Below are positions 22,868 through 29,101 of a DNA stretch of 64,000 bases, piece after piece (positions within the stretch are counted from its first letter, which is position 1; each line of letters begins with the position of its first letter). The stretch comes from Methanolobus profundi (GTDB lineage Archaea; Halobacteriota; Methanosarcinia; Methanosarcinales; Methanosarcinaceae). The stretch lies in the NCBI RefSeq assembly GCF_900114835.1, contig NZ_FOUJ01000001.1:992001-1056000 (forward strand). Direction: 5' to 3'. Under the pieces are notes generated by a model that saw only the letters and a list, made by a program, of their open reading frames with translations, searched no databases and was not told where the DNA came from. The position numbers were made by a program, and so were the translations under genes.

Positions 22868-23500
22868 TCATTGAGTGGTCACAGGCCGGGAATCCCTCTC
22901 AAGAAGCATGTCCTTGCATCTTTTGAGATCGTCAGGGGTGTTGATATTAAGAGCGAACTCTGAATCATCCAGTACCAGACTGACATATTCCTGTTCGTGA
23001 TCCACATTGTTCCCGTCAAGGATATTGATACCAGATGGTACTATCAGTTCACCATCCCAGTTGAATACCGTATCCGGTCTTATTCCAAGACCCTTACATA
23101 CATGGATCGGTGAGAAGATCGACATAGCAGGTTTGCCGCACTCCTTATACTCCATAATGACCTTTTCAAGGAGTTCCGGATTCAGAAGTGGCAGGTCTGC
23201 CATAAGGATCAGAAGCGGTTCATTGATACCTGCGACCTTTACCGCATATACCATGTCACCAACATAGTTCCCTCCACCTGTCGGGATGACCTGTACTTTC
23301 CCTTCATATTCCTTCTGAACAAATGATGCTGTATTCGGGGTTGCAGGAGAGACAGCAACATATATGTCACCTATACTTTCCGTTCTCTGCAGAGTGTCTA
23401 TCACATAGGATATGAGAGGTTTTCCTAATAGTTCGACACAGGGTTTCTCACCCATACCAAGCCTGCTTCCAAATCCCCCTGCCATTATTATAGCGTGCAA
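22868..23500 (-). CDS. cobY: Adenosylcobinamide-phosphate guanylyltransferase, archaeal CobY
   Basis: A 210-aa nucleotidyltransferase. The glycine-rich GTP-binding start MHAIIMAGGFGSRLGMGEKP and the second-half motif LLILMADLPLLNPELLEKV are typical of CobY, the archaeal enzyme that replaces bacterial CobU. It transfers GMP to adenosylcobinamide phosphate. The start codon is TTG (23498-23500), supported by a strong GGAGG 6 bases ahead, whereas the next Met in the frame lies inside the nucleotide-binding loop. It is the last gene of the cobamide operon. Confidence 0.93.
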   Translation of the reverse strand: MHAIIMAGGFGSRLGMGEKPCVELLGKPLISYVIDTLQRTESIGDIYVAVSPATPNTASFVQKEYEGKVQVIPTGGGNYVGDMVYAVKVAGINEPLLILMADLPLLNPELLEKVIMEYKECGKPAMSIFSPIHVCKGLGIRPDTVFNWDGELIVPSGINILDGNNVDHEQEYVSLVLDDSEFALNINTPDDLKRCKDMLLERDSRPVTTQ

Positions 23501-23511
23501 ACGATACCTCC

Positions 23512-24321
23512 TTACATCAATACCAGCGTAATGGTGATCAATGCTATTATCCTTCCTACTTCATTAGATGCGCCAATGACATCGCCATTGACACCACCAA
23601 AGTGCCTGTTGCTTACGTTCAGTAATATAAATGTCGCGAAGATCGCTGCCATGAAAGCATAGATACCTGTAAGTCCGAGACCAAAGTAATATGATGCCCC
23701 AATGCAGGCGACGATACCCATTACAAAACCTATAAGGTATTTAGGTACTGTGGTATTGTTCACAAGTATAGAACCAAGTCCTTCATGGATAGACTTGCCG
23801 AATGCAGCTATTGTGAGCATTGATTGCATGGCGCTGACCTCTGACACGAACATGGCAAAGAAGAATATACGTGCGACCTCAGCAGTTGTGTACAGCAAAC
23901 TAACCTCACCATACAATGCTGTAAGGGATGCATAGAGTGCGATTATAATAAGAGCAGCATATGCAACACCACCTATGCCCAGGGACATATCTTTTAGCGC
24001 TTTTAGTTTCTTCTCCACCGAACCATGGGCTGTCAGACCGTCACCAAGATCTGCAACACCATCCAGGTGGTTAAGACCGGTAAGATAGTAAACAAAAGCA
24101 ATTATCAGTACGGCACTTATTGATATAGGCACATAACTTACCAATGCATAAGCAACTGCACCCATGATCAGACCAAGGACTATACCGACCACCAGATGGA
24201 GATATGTCCTTTTGAAGAACTCATCAAGTCCCTCCATTGTGATCCCCACAGGGATCGTTGACAGGAAACCAAAACTTGACCTTAGAGCTAGTAGAAATCC
24301 ATTCATTCTGCTATCACTCAC
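23512..24321 (-). CDS. cobS: Adenosylcobinamide-GDP ribazoletransferase CobS
   Basis: A 269-aa membrane protein with about seven hydrophobic segments, and the CobS signature YYLTGLNHLDGVADLGDGL (about 86-103) holding the metal-binding acidic residues, plus NRHFGGVNGDVIGASNEVGR near the C-terminus. It joins activated cobinamide to alpha-ribazole (phosphate), the last big step of cobamide assembly, in the membrane. The first codon is GTG (24319-24321); an internal ATG at 24306 is an alternative. It overlaps cobZ by 8 bases and precedes cobY by 11. Confidence 0.95.
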   Translation of the reverse strand: MSDSRMNGFLLALRSSFGFLSTIPVGITMEGLDEFFKRTYLHLVVGIVLGLIMGAVAYALVSYVPISISAVLIIAFVYYLTGLNHLDGVADLGDGLTAHGSVEKKLKALKDMSLGIGGVAYAALIIIALYASLTALYGEVSLLYTTAEVARIFFFAMFVSEVSAMQSMLTIAAFGKSIHEGLGSILVNNTTVPKYLIGFVMGIVACIGASYYFGLGLTGIYAFMAAIFATFILLNVSNRHFGGVNGDVIGASNEVGRIIALITITLVLM

Positions 24322-24886
24322 TTTCAGGTTCTTTTTTCTTAGACTTTCCTGCTGCCTCTGCCATGGCCCTTGTGTACATATTGGCAGAGACTCCGCCGAT
24401 AAGACCGCCTATTATATCGTCCATGAAAGGACCGAGCTCTGCAAGGATACCTGGCTTCTTTTTATCAAAGCGAACGAACTCGAACATACCTTTATCACCA
24501 CTGATGTATCTGGCGATGCTCGTTCCAAGTACCTCATCTGCTATTATGAACGTCAGGTCCTTTTCATAGGAGCTCTTACTGATATTAGGCAACCTGCCCT
24601 TCTGCCCCTCATTCTCCAGTAATACACCAGAATATACCAATAGACAGAGGTTAGGATCAGATATCGCGATATCCAGTTCCTCAAGGAACTTTGCCTCTGC
24701 AAGCTCTCTTGTTTCGATGCCAGGGTGAGGTGCATATAGTTCCAGTGCAGCATCAACAAGCATCTGGACTGTTATTCCTTCTTCTTCAAGGATCTCTATT
24801 ATATCCCTGGTGATCTCACCTTCCAGTTCCTTTGACTGGCCCTTTTTACGGTCTTCTGATTCAATATCCGATAATTTCATTGCCAT
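24314..24886 (-). CDS. cobZ: Alpha-ribazole-5'-phosphate phosphatase, CobZ type (PgpA fold)
   Basis: A 190-aa protein related to phosphatidylglycerophosphatase A. It has TFIIADEVLGTSIARYISG and GPFMDDIIGGLIGGVSANMYTRAMAEA with the acidic residues of that fold. In Methanosarcina mazei such a protein, CobZ, was shown to dephosphorylate alpha-ribazole phosphate or the cobamide phosphate, replacing bacterial CobC. The position between cbiB and cobS supports this over a lipid role. The start is uncertain: ATG at 24886, with GTG just ahead at 24889 and another ATG at 24880. No bacterial-type CobC is seen. Confidence 0.9.
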   Translation of the reverse strand: MAMKLSDIESEDRKKGQSKELEGEITRDIIEILEEEGITVQMLVDAALELYAPHPGIETRELAEAKFLEELDIAISDPNLCLLVYSGVLLENEGQKGRLPNISKSSYEKDLTFIIADEVLGTSIARYISGDKGMFEFVRFDKKKPGILAELGPFMDDIIGGLIGGVSANMYTRAMAEAAGKSKKKEPESE

Positions 24887-24921
24887 CACTTCGGGGAATC
24901 TATTAATGTTAATTTAGTCGG

Positions 24922-25902
24922 TCAGGAGTATGCTGTAATTATGAATGAAGATACAATTATTGCAAATAACGATGCCACAAGTATGATCCAGCTTGTTAGT
25001 TTTATATCCTCGGACATCGGGTAAACAAAACCCTCTCCAAGGACATAGGTATTGGGTTTCTCAAGTTTTACCTTGAGAGCACCTGCTATTGATGCCATTG
25101 GATAACCTGAGTTGGGAGATGGTGTTCCCGAGCCTTCGCCAAAACCTCTCTTGAAGGCACTTTTGTGATCGGGCACTTTCACCTTGCGATATACCAAACC
25201 TATCACAAGCGTCCCTGCTGTCAGGAAAAGTACAGAGAAGCGTGCAGGTATCCAGTTCAGTACATCATCAAGCTTTGCAGAGAACCATCCCACCTCACGG
25301 TGACGTTCATCCATATAACCAACCATTGAGTCGAGAGTACTTGTTGCTTTGAAGACATATGCTGCTATCAGACCACATGGTCCGAAACATGCATAGAACA
25401 ACAGAGGCGAAAGGATACCATCAACGTAGTTCTCTGATGTTGTCTCGATTATAGCTGATGAGACATGCGCTTCATCCAGTCTGGATGTATCCCTGCTCAC
25501 ATACATGGATAACTTCTGTCTTGCACCATCAAGCCTTCCGGCATCCAGCTCTACCCGTACTTCGTCAGCAGCCCCGGAGAGACACTTTATAGCGAATGTT
25601 GCCTTGAGGAAATAGGCTGCCACAAGGTAGCGCAAAGGTGAAGGGATGCTTTCGATCCCCATGAAGTACAGTACAAGATACGCTATGAGCGCGCCAAAGA
25701 GTATGGTTACAAGCCCCATGAATATTCCATAGAGCTTCCTGTTGGTCTTTGGTATGTTCTTTTTGAAAAAACCTATCAATCTGCCCATCCATACAACAGG
25801 ATGGATCGCAGAAGGTGGTTCGCAGAACAACAGGTCCAGGGCATAGGCCAGCAGGAGCACTATAACGAGATCCAATGCATCGGCCTGTACCGGTATTATC
25901 AT
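24922..25902 (-). CDS. cbiB: Adenosylcobinamide-phosphate synthase CbiB/CobD
   Basis: A 326-aa protein with four to five membrane segments. The family's signatures are LLFCEPPSAIHPVVWMGRLI at the start, YVSRDTSRLDEAHVSSAIIETTSENYVDGILSPLLF in the middle, and GYMDERHREVGWFSAKLDDVLNWIPAR after it. It attaches aminopropanol phosphate to adenosylcobyric acid. The ATG overlaps the end of cobD by 4 bases, so it is directly coupled to the enzyme that makes its substrate. Confidence 0.95.
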   Translation of the reverse strand: MIIPVQADALDLVIVLLLAYALDLLFCEPPSAIHPVVWMGRLIGFFKKNIPKTNRKLYGIFMGLVTILFGALIAYLVLYFMGIESIPSPLRYLVAAYFLKATFAIKCLSGAADEVRVELDAGRLDGARQKLSMYVSRDTSRLDEAHVSSAIIETTSENYVDGILSPLLFYACFGPCGLIAAYVFKATSTLDSMVGYMDERHREVGWFSAKLDDVLNWIPARFSVLFLTAGTLVIGLVYRKVKVPDHKSAFKRGFGEGSGTPSPNSGYPMASIAGALKVKLEKPNTYVLGEGFVYPMSEDIKLTSWIILVASLFAIIVSSFIITAYS

Positions 25903-27392
25903 AGGTTGTTCTCCATTACGGTTTCCCAGGCTTTCTTTATGCTTTCCTTGTTCAGTCCATCGGCCGTGAACACTGAAAGCAGATCATCAACAACCTTTTC
26001 CTCATGAACTATATTGCACTTAAGGCAGCTCCATACCTGCCCTCCACTGGAACTCTCGATCCAGTTCCCACCTGTGCGGGAATCCTCACAAGGATAGAAA
26101 GGACAGAAACAGAAAGTGCAGTCCTGGCCTTCGAAATGACATGGATAATAGTCGCAATCGGTGTTACTTCCCTTACGGCCGCAATCAGCAGCATCTTTTA
26201 TGTTCTCTGTGAGCTGTAACTCCGCCTGCTCCCTGCCCCATTCATAGATCACCTGACGGATGGTGGCTGCGATACGCTCATTCTCTTCCCTGGTGCGTAT
26301 AGCTATCCTGATATGGTCCTCCCCGATGTTCTGGAAAGAACTGCAATCACGGATAAGCACACCATGAGAGGCCATACGTTCTGCAAGTTCTGCAGAGTTG
26401 AGCGAGAGATCGGAGATATCCACAAAAATATAATTGACACTGCTCTCAAATGGTTTGAAACCCCTGCGAGAGAGCTTCTCCATAAGGAAAGCACGTTCTT
26501 TTGCTATGAACTCTCTGGAGTCCACAAGATATTTGCTGTTTGCACCGCCCTTCATGCTTAACAGTGCAGTTGCGATCGTATCTGAGATACAACCCATGTT
26601 CCAGGAAAGCCTTGCATTGTTCAATACGCATGCGAATCTTTTAGAGGCTACTCCAAAGCCCATCCTTATTCCGGGAATGGCAAAGGACTTTGTAAGGGAG
26701 CGCTGTATGAAAAGATAATCATTTTCTTCTACTAAATATGCGACACTCTGATCAGGATCTGCAAGTTCGATATATGCTTCATCAACAAAGAGAATGGTCT
26801 TGTTAGCCGCACACTTCTCTGCAAGTTGCTCCATCCTTTCCTTTAAGAACATCTCACCTGTAGGATTATTGGGATTGCATACAAAGATGATCTTTGCTTC
26901 ATCAAGGACCGCATCATCAAGGTCAAAGATATCTTTCTGGTCGATGTATCTGATCTTTGCACCCATTACCTGACACTGCATCTCATATTCACTGAATGTC
27001 GGTTTAGGTATGAGTACTACATCGCCTTCATCTATGACACATTCTGCAACCAGCCTGATTATCTCAGTTGAGCCATTACCAGGTATGATATTCTCATATG
27101 TAGTTCCCATACCTACAAAATCCGCTGCTGCGTTCCTGTATTCAAGATAACGATTATCAGGGTACTGTTCCATTTTCTCAAGCCCTGAACTGAGTAGCTC
27201 CTGTAGATCCAGTTCTGGCGCGGGTTGTTCAAATGGTGTTCCCAGCGGATTCAGACTGGCACTTGCATCCAGCATCTCGGACTCTGGGATCCCATATTTC
27301 TGGGAACTTTTTCTTATCAGTCCACCATGAACGCATGGTTCAAGGCTCAAAAGATATTTCTTTACCGGAAGAGGTGATCTTTGGTCAGTCAT
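25899..27392 (-). CDS. cobD: L-threonine-O-3-phosphate decarboxylase CobD with C-terminal cysteine-rich domain
   Basis: A 497-aa fold-type I PLP enzyme. Residues 20-380 have all key motifs: GNGSTE (105-110), NPNNPTGE (173-180), VDEAYIELADP (203-213, Asp204 and Tyr207), SLTKSF with the PLP lysine Lys235, and IPGIRMGFG. It makes aminopropanol phosphate from threonine phosphate. After about residue 405 comes a cysteine-rich tail (DYYPCHFEGQDCTFCFCPFYPC and SCLKC) that probably holds a metal or Fe-S cluster. From memory, the Methanosarcina mazei homologue is reported to have such a tail and an added threonine-kinase activity. The next gene upstream is a paralogue lacking Lys235. No separate pduX kinase gene is nearby. 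Confidence 0.94.
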   Translation of the reverse strand: MTDQRSPLPVKKYLLSLEPCVHGGLIRKSSQKYGIPESEMLDASASLNPLGTPFEQPAPELDLQELLSSGLEKMEQYPDNRYLEYRNAAADFVGMGTTYENIIPGNGSTEIIRLVAECVIDEGDVVLIPKPTFSEYEMQCQVMGAKIRYIDQKDIFDLDDAVLDEAKIIFVCNPNNPTGEMFLKERMEQLAEKCAANKTILFVDEAYIELADPDQSVAYLVEENDYLFIQRSLTKSFAIPGIRMGFGVASKRFACVLNNARLSWNMGCISDTIATALLSMKGGANSKYLVDSREFIAKERAFLMEKLSRRGFKPFESSVNYIFVDISDLSLNSAELAERMASHGVLIRDCSSFQNIGEDHIRIAIRTREENERIAATIRQVIYEWGREQAELQLTENIKDAADCGRKGSNTDCDYYPCHFEGQDCTFCFCPFYPCEDSRTGGNWIESSSGGQVWSCLKCNIVHEEKVVDDLLSVFTADGLNKESIKKAWETVMENNL

Positions 27393-27454: not shown

Positions 27455-28954
27455 TCAAAGCAGAGGTATTATTACCTCCTTCCATGCTCTCCTTATATTA
27501 TCATCAGTATCTCCGTCTGCCATCAGTGCATCAAGCACCATCTTGGCGACATTTGGTCTATGCAATAAAGTACAATGTTCGCAGCTCCAGACCTGCCCGC
27601 CTGTAGAGCTCTCGATCCATTTTCCACCTGTTCGTTCTTCCTCACAGGCATAGAAAGGACAGAAACAGAAAGTACAGTCCTGTCCTGTGAAATGACATGG
27701 ATAATATTCGCAGGAACCCCTGCCAGCAGTTGAAGCACCACCATGTTCAATGGTCTCCTCAAGTTTCTCCCTGGCATCCTCGCGGCTCATCTCGGCAAAT
27801 ACATCATCAAGGGTACGTATCAGTCTCTCGAACTCATCCCTTGGCCTTACAGATAGCCTTACATATCTTTTCTCACCGTTGAAGAGATCACTGCAATCAC
27901 GTATCATTATACCATGGGATGCAAGTCCTTCTGTGAGCCTGGCAGAATCCAGGAAAAGATCACGGATATCCACAAGCACATAATTTGCACTGCTTTCAAT
28001 AACATCGAAACCGTAGATCCCTGAGAAACGTTTACTGATATACTTGCGTTCCTTTTTGATAAGGTCCCTTGACATGGAAAGATATTCACAGTCGCTTCCT
28101 CCTTCCATTGAAAGGAAAGCAGTTCCAATGACCTCATCCACAACACCGATATTCCACGACAGACGGGCAGAGTTCAGTATCCCAGCCAGTGAACGGGAGG
28201 CAATACCGTAAGCCAGCCTTATACCCGGCATACCTATAATATTAGATACAGACCGGATCACCAGAAGATGATCGTTATCCAGTGCCAGGTCCACCATGCT
28301 CATATCAGGGTCTGAAAGCTCGATCGATGATTCATCGACTATAAGCAGGGTATTGTGCTCCGAGCACATCTCTGCAAGATGGATCAGGTCATCTTTCTGC
28401 AACAGTTCCCCTGTAGGGTCATTTGGATTCTGGATGATAAGCACACTTGCCCTTTCCAGAGTCATCTTAGGAAGGGTAAGCATTTCCTTTGAAGTAAATG
28501 AATGTACACGAGCACCGAATATACCTGCAATATGGCGATACTGCCCAGAAGAAGGTGAAGGGACTATTACCAGATCATCTTCTTTTACAACAGACTCAAC
28601 GGCCAGACGCAATATCTCACATGACCCACTGCCAGGCACTATATTGTCAAAAGTAACTCCATGACCTGTAAAGCCGGCAGCAGCATTCCTGAGCTCAAGA
28701 TACCTGTTATCAGGATATTGTTCGAACCTGTCCACCGAACTAAAGATAATCTGTTCCAGGTCGATGCTATCGTCCTTATAGTTGAAAGGTGTCCCCAGCG
28801 GATTGAGGTTTGAGCTGAAATCAAGAATACCTGATTCTGGAACGTCTAGTTCTTTTGCCAGATCACAAGCCCTCCCGCCGTGTTTCTTTGCTTGCAGTGC
28901 AAGCAAGTAGTGCTTCAAATGGAGTGGGAAATTTTTTCGGTACACACTTATCAA
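27455..28954 (-). CDS. CobD paralogue lacking the PLP lysine (probable pseudoenzyme)
   Basis: A 499-aa protein aligned along its whole length with the CobD at 25899-27392, cysteine tail included (EYYPCHFTGQDCTFCFCPFYAC and SCEHC). At the active site it differs: SVSNIIGMPGIRLAYG has Asn238 (codon AAT at 28241-28243) where CobD has its PLP lysine; VDEAY is VDESS (tyrosine lost); NPNNPTG is NPNDPTG; and the stacking region PTFSEYE is SPSSGQY. The PLP-phosphate loop GSGSCE and arginines are kept. It cannot form the usual Schiff base, so it is probably not a decarboxylase. The frame is intact, and the cysteine tail is fully conserved. The first codon appears to be TTG (28952-28954) with a GTG three codons on; a TATA-like element at about 28980-28990 sits close by. 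Confidence 0.9.
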   Translation of the reverse strand: MISVYRKNFPLHLKHYLLALQAKKHGGRACDLAKELDVPESGILDFSSNLNPLGTPFNYKDDSIDLEQIIFSSVDRFEQYPDNRYLELRNAAAGFTGHGVTFDNIVPGSGSCEILRLAVESVVKEDDLVIVPSPSSGQYRHIAGIFGARVHSFTSKEMLTLPKMTLERASVLIIQNPNDPTGELLQKDDLIHLAEMCSEHNTLLIVDESSIELSDPDMSMVDLALDNDHLLVIRSVSNIIGMPGIRLAYGIASRSLAGILNSARLSWNIGVVDEVIGTAFLSMEGGSDCEYLSMSRDLIKKERKYISKRFSGIYGFDVIESSANYVLVDIRDLFLDSARLTEGLASHGIMIRDCSDLFNGEKRYVRLSVRPRDEFERLIRTLDDVFAEMSREDAREKLEETIEHGGASTAGRGSCEYYPCHFTGQDCTFCFCPFYACEEERTGGKWIESSTGGQVWSCEHCTLLHRPNVAKMVLDALMADGDTDDNIRRAWKEVIIPLL

Positions 28955-28977
28955 CAGGTGGTTACGCAGAAGAGCTA

Positions 28978-28992
28978 TATTAAACTATTCAA
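28978..28992 (-). promoter_or_regulatory. Probable promoter of the cobamide operon
   Basis: On the minus strand the 146-base gap reads ...TTGAATAGTTTAATATAGCTC..., a TATA-like element about 25 bases before the first possible start codon of the cobD paralogue. The transcript would thus be leaderless or nearly so. No cobalamin riboswitch was recognised. Confidence 0.4.
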
Positions 28993-29101
28993 GTTGAGTT
29001 GTGCTACAGTCCGCAATTGATGCCCTTTCAGGATAAACCAATAAATAGGAGTAACACAGATCTATCAGAAGTTATTAAATTCATACATTGGAGGCTAATT
29101 G

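Follow-up and report, generated by a model that had tools for sequence, protein, structure and literature searches.

A conserved CobD paralogue without the PLP-binding lysine in the cobamide operon of Methanolobus

Why should a cobamide operon carry two CobD genes side by side, one of them encoding a protein that lacks the PLP-binding lysine of the decarboxylase? The question is raised by a stretch of 64,000 nucleotides from Methanolobus profundi (the window), in which a gene at 27455..28954 (-) encodes a CobD paralogue of 499 amino acids and its neighbour at 25899..27392 (-) a Lys-type CobD of 497 amino acids. The two proteins can be aligned over their whole length and are 46% identical, and both combine PF00155 with a PF04071 tail, matching the MM2060-type architecture; no other PF04071 domain is present in the genome. 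The adjacent CobD carries K235 (codon AAG, 26688-26690) and, with 292.8 bits, passes the TIGR01140 (CobD) equivalog cut-off of 290.55 bits, which the paralogue fails with 223.9 bits. At the position of the PLP-binding lysine expected of CobD (EC 4.1.1.81; K216 in S. enterica), the paralogue has Asn238 (codon AAT, 28241..28243 (-)). Checking of the codons confirmed what a preliminary description had read from the letters: the gene is a full-length CobD paralogue in which Asn238 replaces the PLP lysine. Its start is ambiguous, either TTG at 28954 or GTG at 28945, the GTG being common to nearly all Methanolobus copies.

The paralogue stands at the head of six co-directional minus-strand genes and is followed by cobD, cbiB, a cobZ-type gene, cobS and a cobY-type gene. 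The cbiB gene (adenosylcobinamide-phosphate synthase, 24922..25902 (-); PF03186, 288 bits) overlaps the end of cobD by four bases. The gene at 24314..24889 (-) encodes a PgpA-family protein (PF04608), which we take to be a CobZ-type alpha-ribazole phosphatase from knowledge of the archaeal pathway and from its position; cobS (23512..24321 (-), PF02654) and a nucleotidyltransferase gene called cobY-type from its context (22868..23500 (-), PF12804) complete the series. Upstream of the paralogue, a TATA-box-like element, TTTAATATA, was spotted by eye at 28976..28984 (-) and is conserved in Methanolobus, and the block that contains it, positions 28940-29000 of the window, is strongly conserved in the genus. 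The mRNA of the paralogue may be leaderless or nearly so. An Rfam search around the operon found neither a riboswitch nor any other RNA family, and a search for plasmid-borne relatives gave nothing close.

The substitution is not confined to this genome, the case in which the preliminary description would have given up its reading. All 27 Methanolobus genomes searched have a second CobD copy and all 27 second copies have lost the lysine, with Asn at the position in most, and Arg, Gly and Asp in one each; five Methanomethylovorans-type copies all have His. On the tree, the Lys-less copies of Methanolobus and Methanomethylovorans form one clade with full support, and in both groups the copy adjoins the Lys-type gene and opens a cobD-cbiB-cobZ-cobS-cobY operon, so that the clade with a conserved gene position that had been proposed as a check was indeed found. 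In Methanosarcinales and relatives, 109 distinct CobDs are of the Lys type, and Lys235 is present in 100% of them; as this set is defined by the lysine itself, the informative point is that the tree contains no intermediate or mixed clade. None of the 36 distinct paralogues from the two methanogen lineages without the lysine has it. Neighbouring genera with one CobD gene have a protein about 47% identical to the paralogue.

We then asked what the loss of the lysine has left of the active site. Besides K235, the Lys-less paralogues have lost F133 and A206, and in some lineages also S108 and R243 on the phosphate side. In parallel, each of the four main Lys-less lineages replaced F133 (by Ser, Pro, Ala, Cys, Asn or Thr) and A206 (by Ser or Thr), the two residues that, judging from the homologous aspartate aminotransferase, should grip the PLP ring from both sides. 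Retained are E205 and R362, largely D204 and S232, and mostly N48 and R348. Both substrate-side arginines, R348 (S. enterica R323) and R362 (R337), are present in 100% of Methanolobus paralogues. Y77, which corresponds to Y56 of the S. enterica enzyme and Y55 of E. coli HisC and acts across the dimer interface, is Tyr in 100% of the Methanolobus and Methanomethylovorans paralogues. In Methanohalophilus paralogues, R348 is partly Lys, Y77 mostly Phe and W264 mostly lost. An AlphaFold2 model of the paralogue (mean pLDDT 83.7) has S. enterica CobD as its top four Foldseek matches (best E 2.6e-27, TM 0.87 on the target) and so has the fold-type-I fold of CobD. Residue conservation indicates that the pocket for the PLP ring has been eroded and that the fold and the substrate-side residues have been retained.

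Two further changes named in the preliminary description proved less general than the loss of the lysine. The DESS motif (Ser209-Ser210, codons at 28325..28330 (-)) does replace DEA[FY] of the Lys-type CobD, but the Tyr described there as conserved is not, since Phe takes this place in 100% of the single-copy CobDs, 72% of active copies and one third of Methanolobus paralogues; the recurrent change is that of the preceding residue, Ala206 to Ser. Likewise, Asp stands for Asn in the NPNNPTG motif of this protein (NPNDPTG; Asp179, codon GAC, 28418..28420 (-), at the position of S. enterica N157), yet only 30% of Methanolobus paralogues share the change.

Some fold-type-I enzymes work without the lysine: the dehydratase ColD has His in its place. 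By analogy, the paralogues might carry out PLP or PMP chemistry of this kind, and His in all Methanomethylovorans copies and the largely kept D204 and S232 would suit it. Against this, the other lineages have Asn, Asp, Arg, Gly, Thr or Tyr, and the two presumed ring-flanking residues are gone, so that we think such chemistry very unlikely. Across lineages, the replacing residue is variable (N, D, R, G, H, T, Y), which argues that the position has lost its role and was not given over to a new catalyst.

Slow decay without function is disfavoured and, to us, the least probable account of the gene. The median dN/dS in Methanolobus is 0.11 for the paralogue against 0.054 for the active CobD (medians, here and below, of simple pairwise Nei-Gojobori estimates with dS under 1.3), and this twofold higher ratio, together with N-terminal stops in one species, is what decay would predict. 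A ratio of about 0.11 nevertheless points to purifying selection on the paralogue, the frame is open in 26 of the 27 members of the genus, conservation of the tail is perfect, and loss of the lysine has recurred independently, as described below. The Lys-less copies of Methanomethylovorans and Methanohalophilus have medians of 0.13 and 0.20, respectively. The exceptional species, Methanolobus Soudan_27 (L010/L039), has a TGA and a TAG within the first 25 codons (L039:6001-6043). Methanolobus uses pyrrolysine, which does not rescue this copy because the TGA still breaks the frame; the species may be losing the gene. The conserved clade, its gene position and the selection on it bear out the earlier view of a maintained pseudoenzyme, where "pseudoenzyme" would apply to Lys-dependent PLP chemistry only.

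The phenomenon is wider than the preliminary description had proposed. In 8 of 8 Methanohalophilus genomes, the operon (cbiB-cobZ-cobS-cobY) starts with a Lys-less CobD, and a Lys-type copy is found some 24 kb from it; the operon context was read in two of the genomes. On the tree, these Lys-less copies cluster with the Lys-type second copies of Methanococcoides, and two separate lysine losses within the Methanosarcinaceae are supported. A single origin of all methanogen Lys-less copies was considered and rejected (AU p=0.0046 against one clade, for a grouping picked after the first tree). In Methanococcoides, both CobDs are of the Lys type; an additional CobY-like nucleotidyltransferase gene separates them, and apparent pylBCD genes lie alongside (L057:5971-9809, L056).

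Outside the methanogens, a Haloferax-like genus (g94), so called from its gene order, has a Lys-type cobD1 and an Asn-type cobD2 in 10 of 10 genomes. Its CobD2 has the motif HSVTNVFG without the PLP lysine in all ten (L252:2140-3150 (-), L253, L254, L258-L267) and lacks the PF04071 tail. The dN/dS is 0.17 for CobD2 and 0.185 for CobD1. In the genome that was read fully, cbiZ lies between cobD1 and cobD2, and the genes follow the order published for HVO_0587-0593 of Haloferax volcanii (PMC8305020); HVO_0593, annotated as cobD2, is likely to be without the PLP lysine as well. Isolated Lys-less copies occur in two more haloarchaeal genomes, with Lys to Thr in G127 and Lys to Asn in G415; as each sits on a long branch, it is uncertain whether they arose separately. 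In G415, the Lys-less copy is the sole CobD-like protein found (L225:1489-2562 (-)); it has Asn at the lysine position, in RSLTNIFG, and an otherwise largely intact PLP pocket. Taken together, at least three independent origins of Lys-less CobD are supported.

The haloarchaeal copies also bear on the tail. In the paralogue of the window, PF04071 (27518..27718 (-)) retains all 20 invariant tail residues, in agreement with the cysteine-rich tail having been described as fully kept, and the same 20/20 holds in each of the three methanogen Lys-less groups, against 37 (Methanolobus), 32 (Methanomethylovorans) and 19 (Methanohalophilus) of the 51 PLP-domain residues that are invariant in Lys-type CobDs. 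Between matched genomes, the PLP domain has diverged 1.7 times as far in the paralogue as in the active CobD, and the tail 0.94 times as far. Elsewhere, PF04071 occurs alone, fused to the adenosylcobinamide amidohydrolase CbiZ in other archaea (L163:2383-3249 (+), L160:1465-2373 (-)), which makes the tail a portable module of cobamide enzymes, or fused to a glycerophosphodiester phosphodiesterase (GDPD; L166:2935-3957 (-)) with no obvious cobamide context. The protein might accordingly be kept for this putative iron- or other metal-binding domain, with the PLP fold as a mere platform. We consider this improbable: purifying selection acts on the PLP domain too, and as a general explanation the idea was dropped, since the Lys-less CobD2 of the Haloferax-like genus has no tail. 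Reportedly, the tail of the M. mazei protein is inactive by itself, and the protein without it retained some of both its L-threonine kinase and its decarboxylase activity.

Independent recurrence, and the keeping of the twin in all close relatives, make it very probable that the paralogue has a job of its own. The reading that we tentatively put first, and that may well prove wrong, is that of a retired decarboxylase which has kept the site for threonine and threonine phosphate and supplies the L-threonine kinase half of a bifunctional CobD. It fits the loss of PLP features with the substrate side kept, against the background of MM2060, the Methanosarcina mazei CobD, which is cited in PMC9986279 as a bifunctional L-threonine kinase and L-threonine-phosphate decarboxylase with metallocentres. 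The Lys-less duplicate would be unable to form the PLP internal aldimine and would not be expected to decarboxylate L-threonine-phosphate; it could instead bind L-threonine and ATP and make L-threonine-phosphate, or hold it and pass it on, and the neighbouring Lys-type CobD would convert this to aminopropanol-phosphate for CbiB. Such a split of labour after duplication would be the most economical reading, in which a function as kinase, and any association of the protein with CobD, are inference. Several findings count against it: one CobD suffices for the single-copy relatives, both copies of Methanococcoides have stayed Lys-type, the Soudan_27 copy has its two N-terminal stops, and Methanohalophilus departs at R348 and Y77. 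Nor did the Lys-type partner show a clear reciprocal loss: among residues that the paralogue shares with single-copy CobDs and that the partner has lost, we found no clear active-site signature, only positions such as F43A and R410N without a known catalytic role.

In the main rival account, the paralogue would act as a non-catalytic partner or regulatory subunit that forms a heterodimer with the Lys-type CobD and completes or tunes one active site per dimer. Fold-type-I PLP enzymes have their active sites at the dimer interface, and LCB1 provides a precedent (PMC3794620). In Methanolobus and Methanomethylovorans, the cross-interface Y77 is invariably kept while K235, F133 and A206 of the same subunit are lost, and the two genes are adjacent. 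For Methanolobus, because of the kept Y77 and the adjacent genes, we regard this account as nearly as likely as the kinase split; the distant Lys-type copy of Methanohalophilus, with Y77 mostly Phe and W264 mostly lost in its Lys-less one, makes it a poorer fit there. Over all lineages, such a subunit seems to us a possibility on the doubtful side.

Repeated loss of one catalytic lysine, in a twin usually kept in the cobamide operon, points to one PLP-independent function. That archaea repeatedly converted the duplicate of a PLP decarboxylase into a cobamide-assembly protein that does without PLP, perhaps a fold-type-I scaffold turned dedicated L-threonine kinase, is a generalisation that we offer with considerable reserve. 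A dedicated kinase, if real, would fill a missing step of haloarchaea, as EC 2.7.1.177 (L-threonine kinase) is a gap in the Haloferax pathway, for which two cobD genes are annotated (PMC8305020). Given this gap and the kinase activity of M. mazei CobD, the Lys-less twins would be natural separation-of-function variants that could locate the kinase activity within CobD. If the paralogue is a partner subunit instead, the assembly of archaeal CobD needs revision. Genome annotation now calls such copies ordinary CobD, an example being Haloferax cobD2, which was entered as a CobD (PMC8305020).

Lys-less pseudoenzyme partners of PLP enzymes are already known; we found no description of a Lys-less CobD in the open-licence literature searched. 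M. mazei MM2060 shares the PF00155 and PF04071 architecture of the paralogue, whereas single copies of its type keep the PLP lysine and the paralogue has neither the lysine nor an unaltered PLP-ring pocket. S. enterica CobD (PDB 1LC5/1LC7/1LC8/1LKC), the best fold match, has its R323, R337, Y56 and H8 equivalents kept in the paralogue, which differs in having Asn for K216 and an extra cysteine-rich tail, at 24% identity. The second CobD of the Haloferax cobamide cluster (HVO_0593; PMC8305020), Lys-less in its Haloferax-like counterpart, resembles the paralogue in its setting and differs in its missing PF04071 tail, its separate origin and the cbiZ gene between the two copies. LCB1/SPTLC1 of serine palmitoyltransferase is likewise a Lys-less fold-type-I paralogue beside a catalytic homologue (PMC3794620); LCB1/LCB2 belongs to another family with another reaction, and its heterodimer has been demonstrated, whereas for the Methanolobus paralogue a heterodimer is a proposal.
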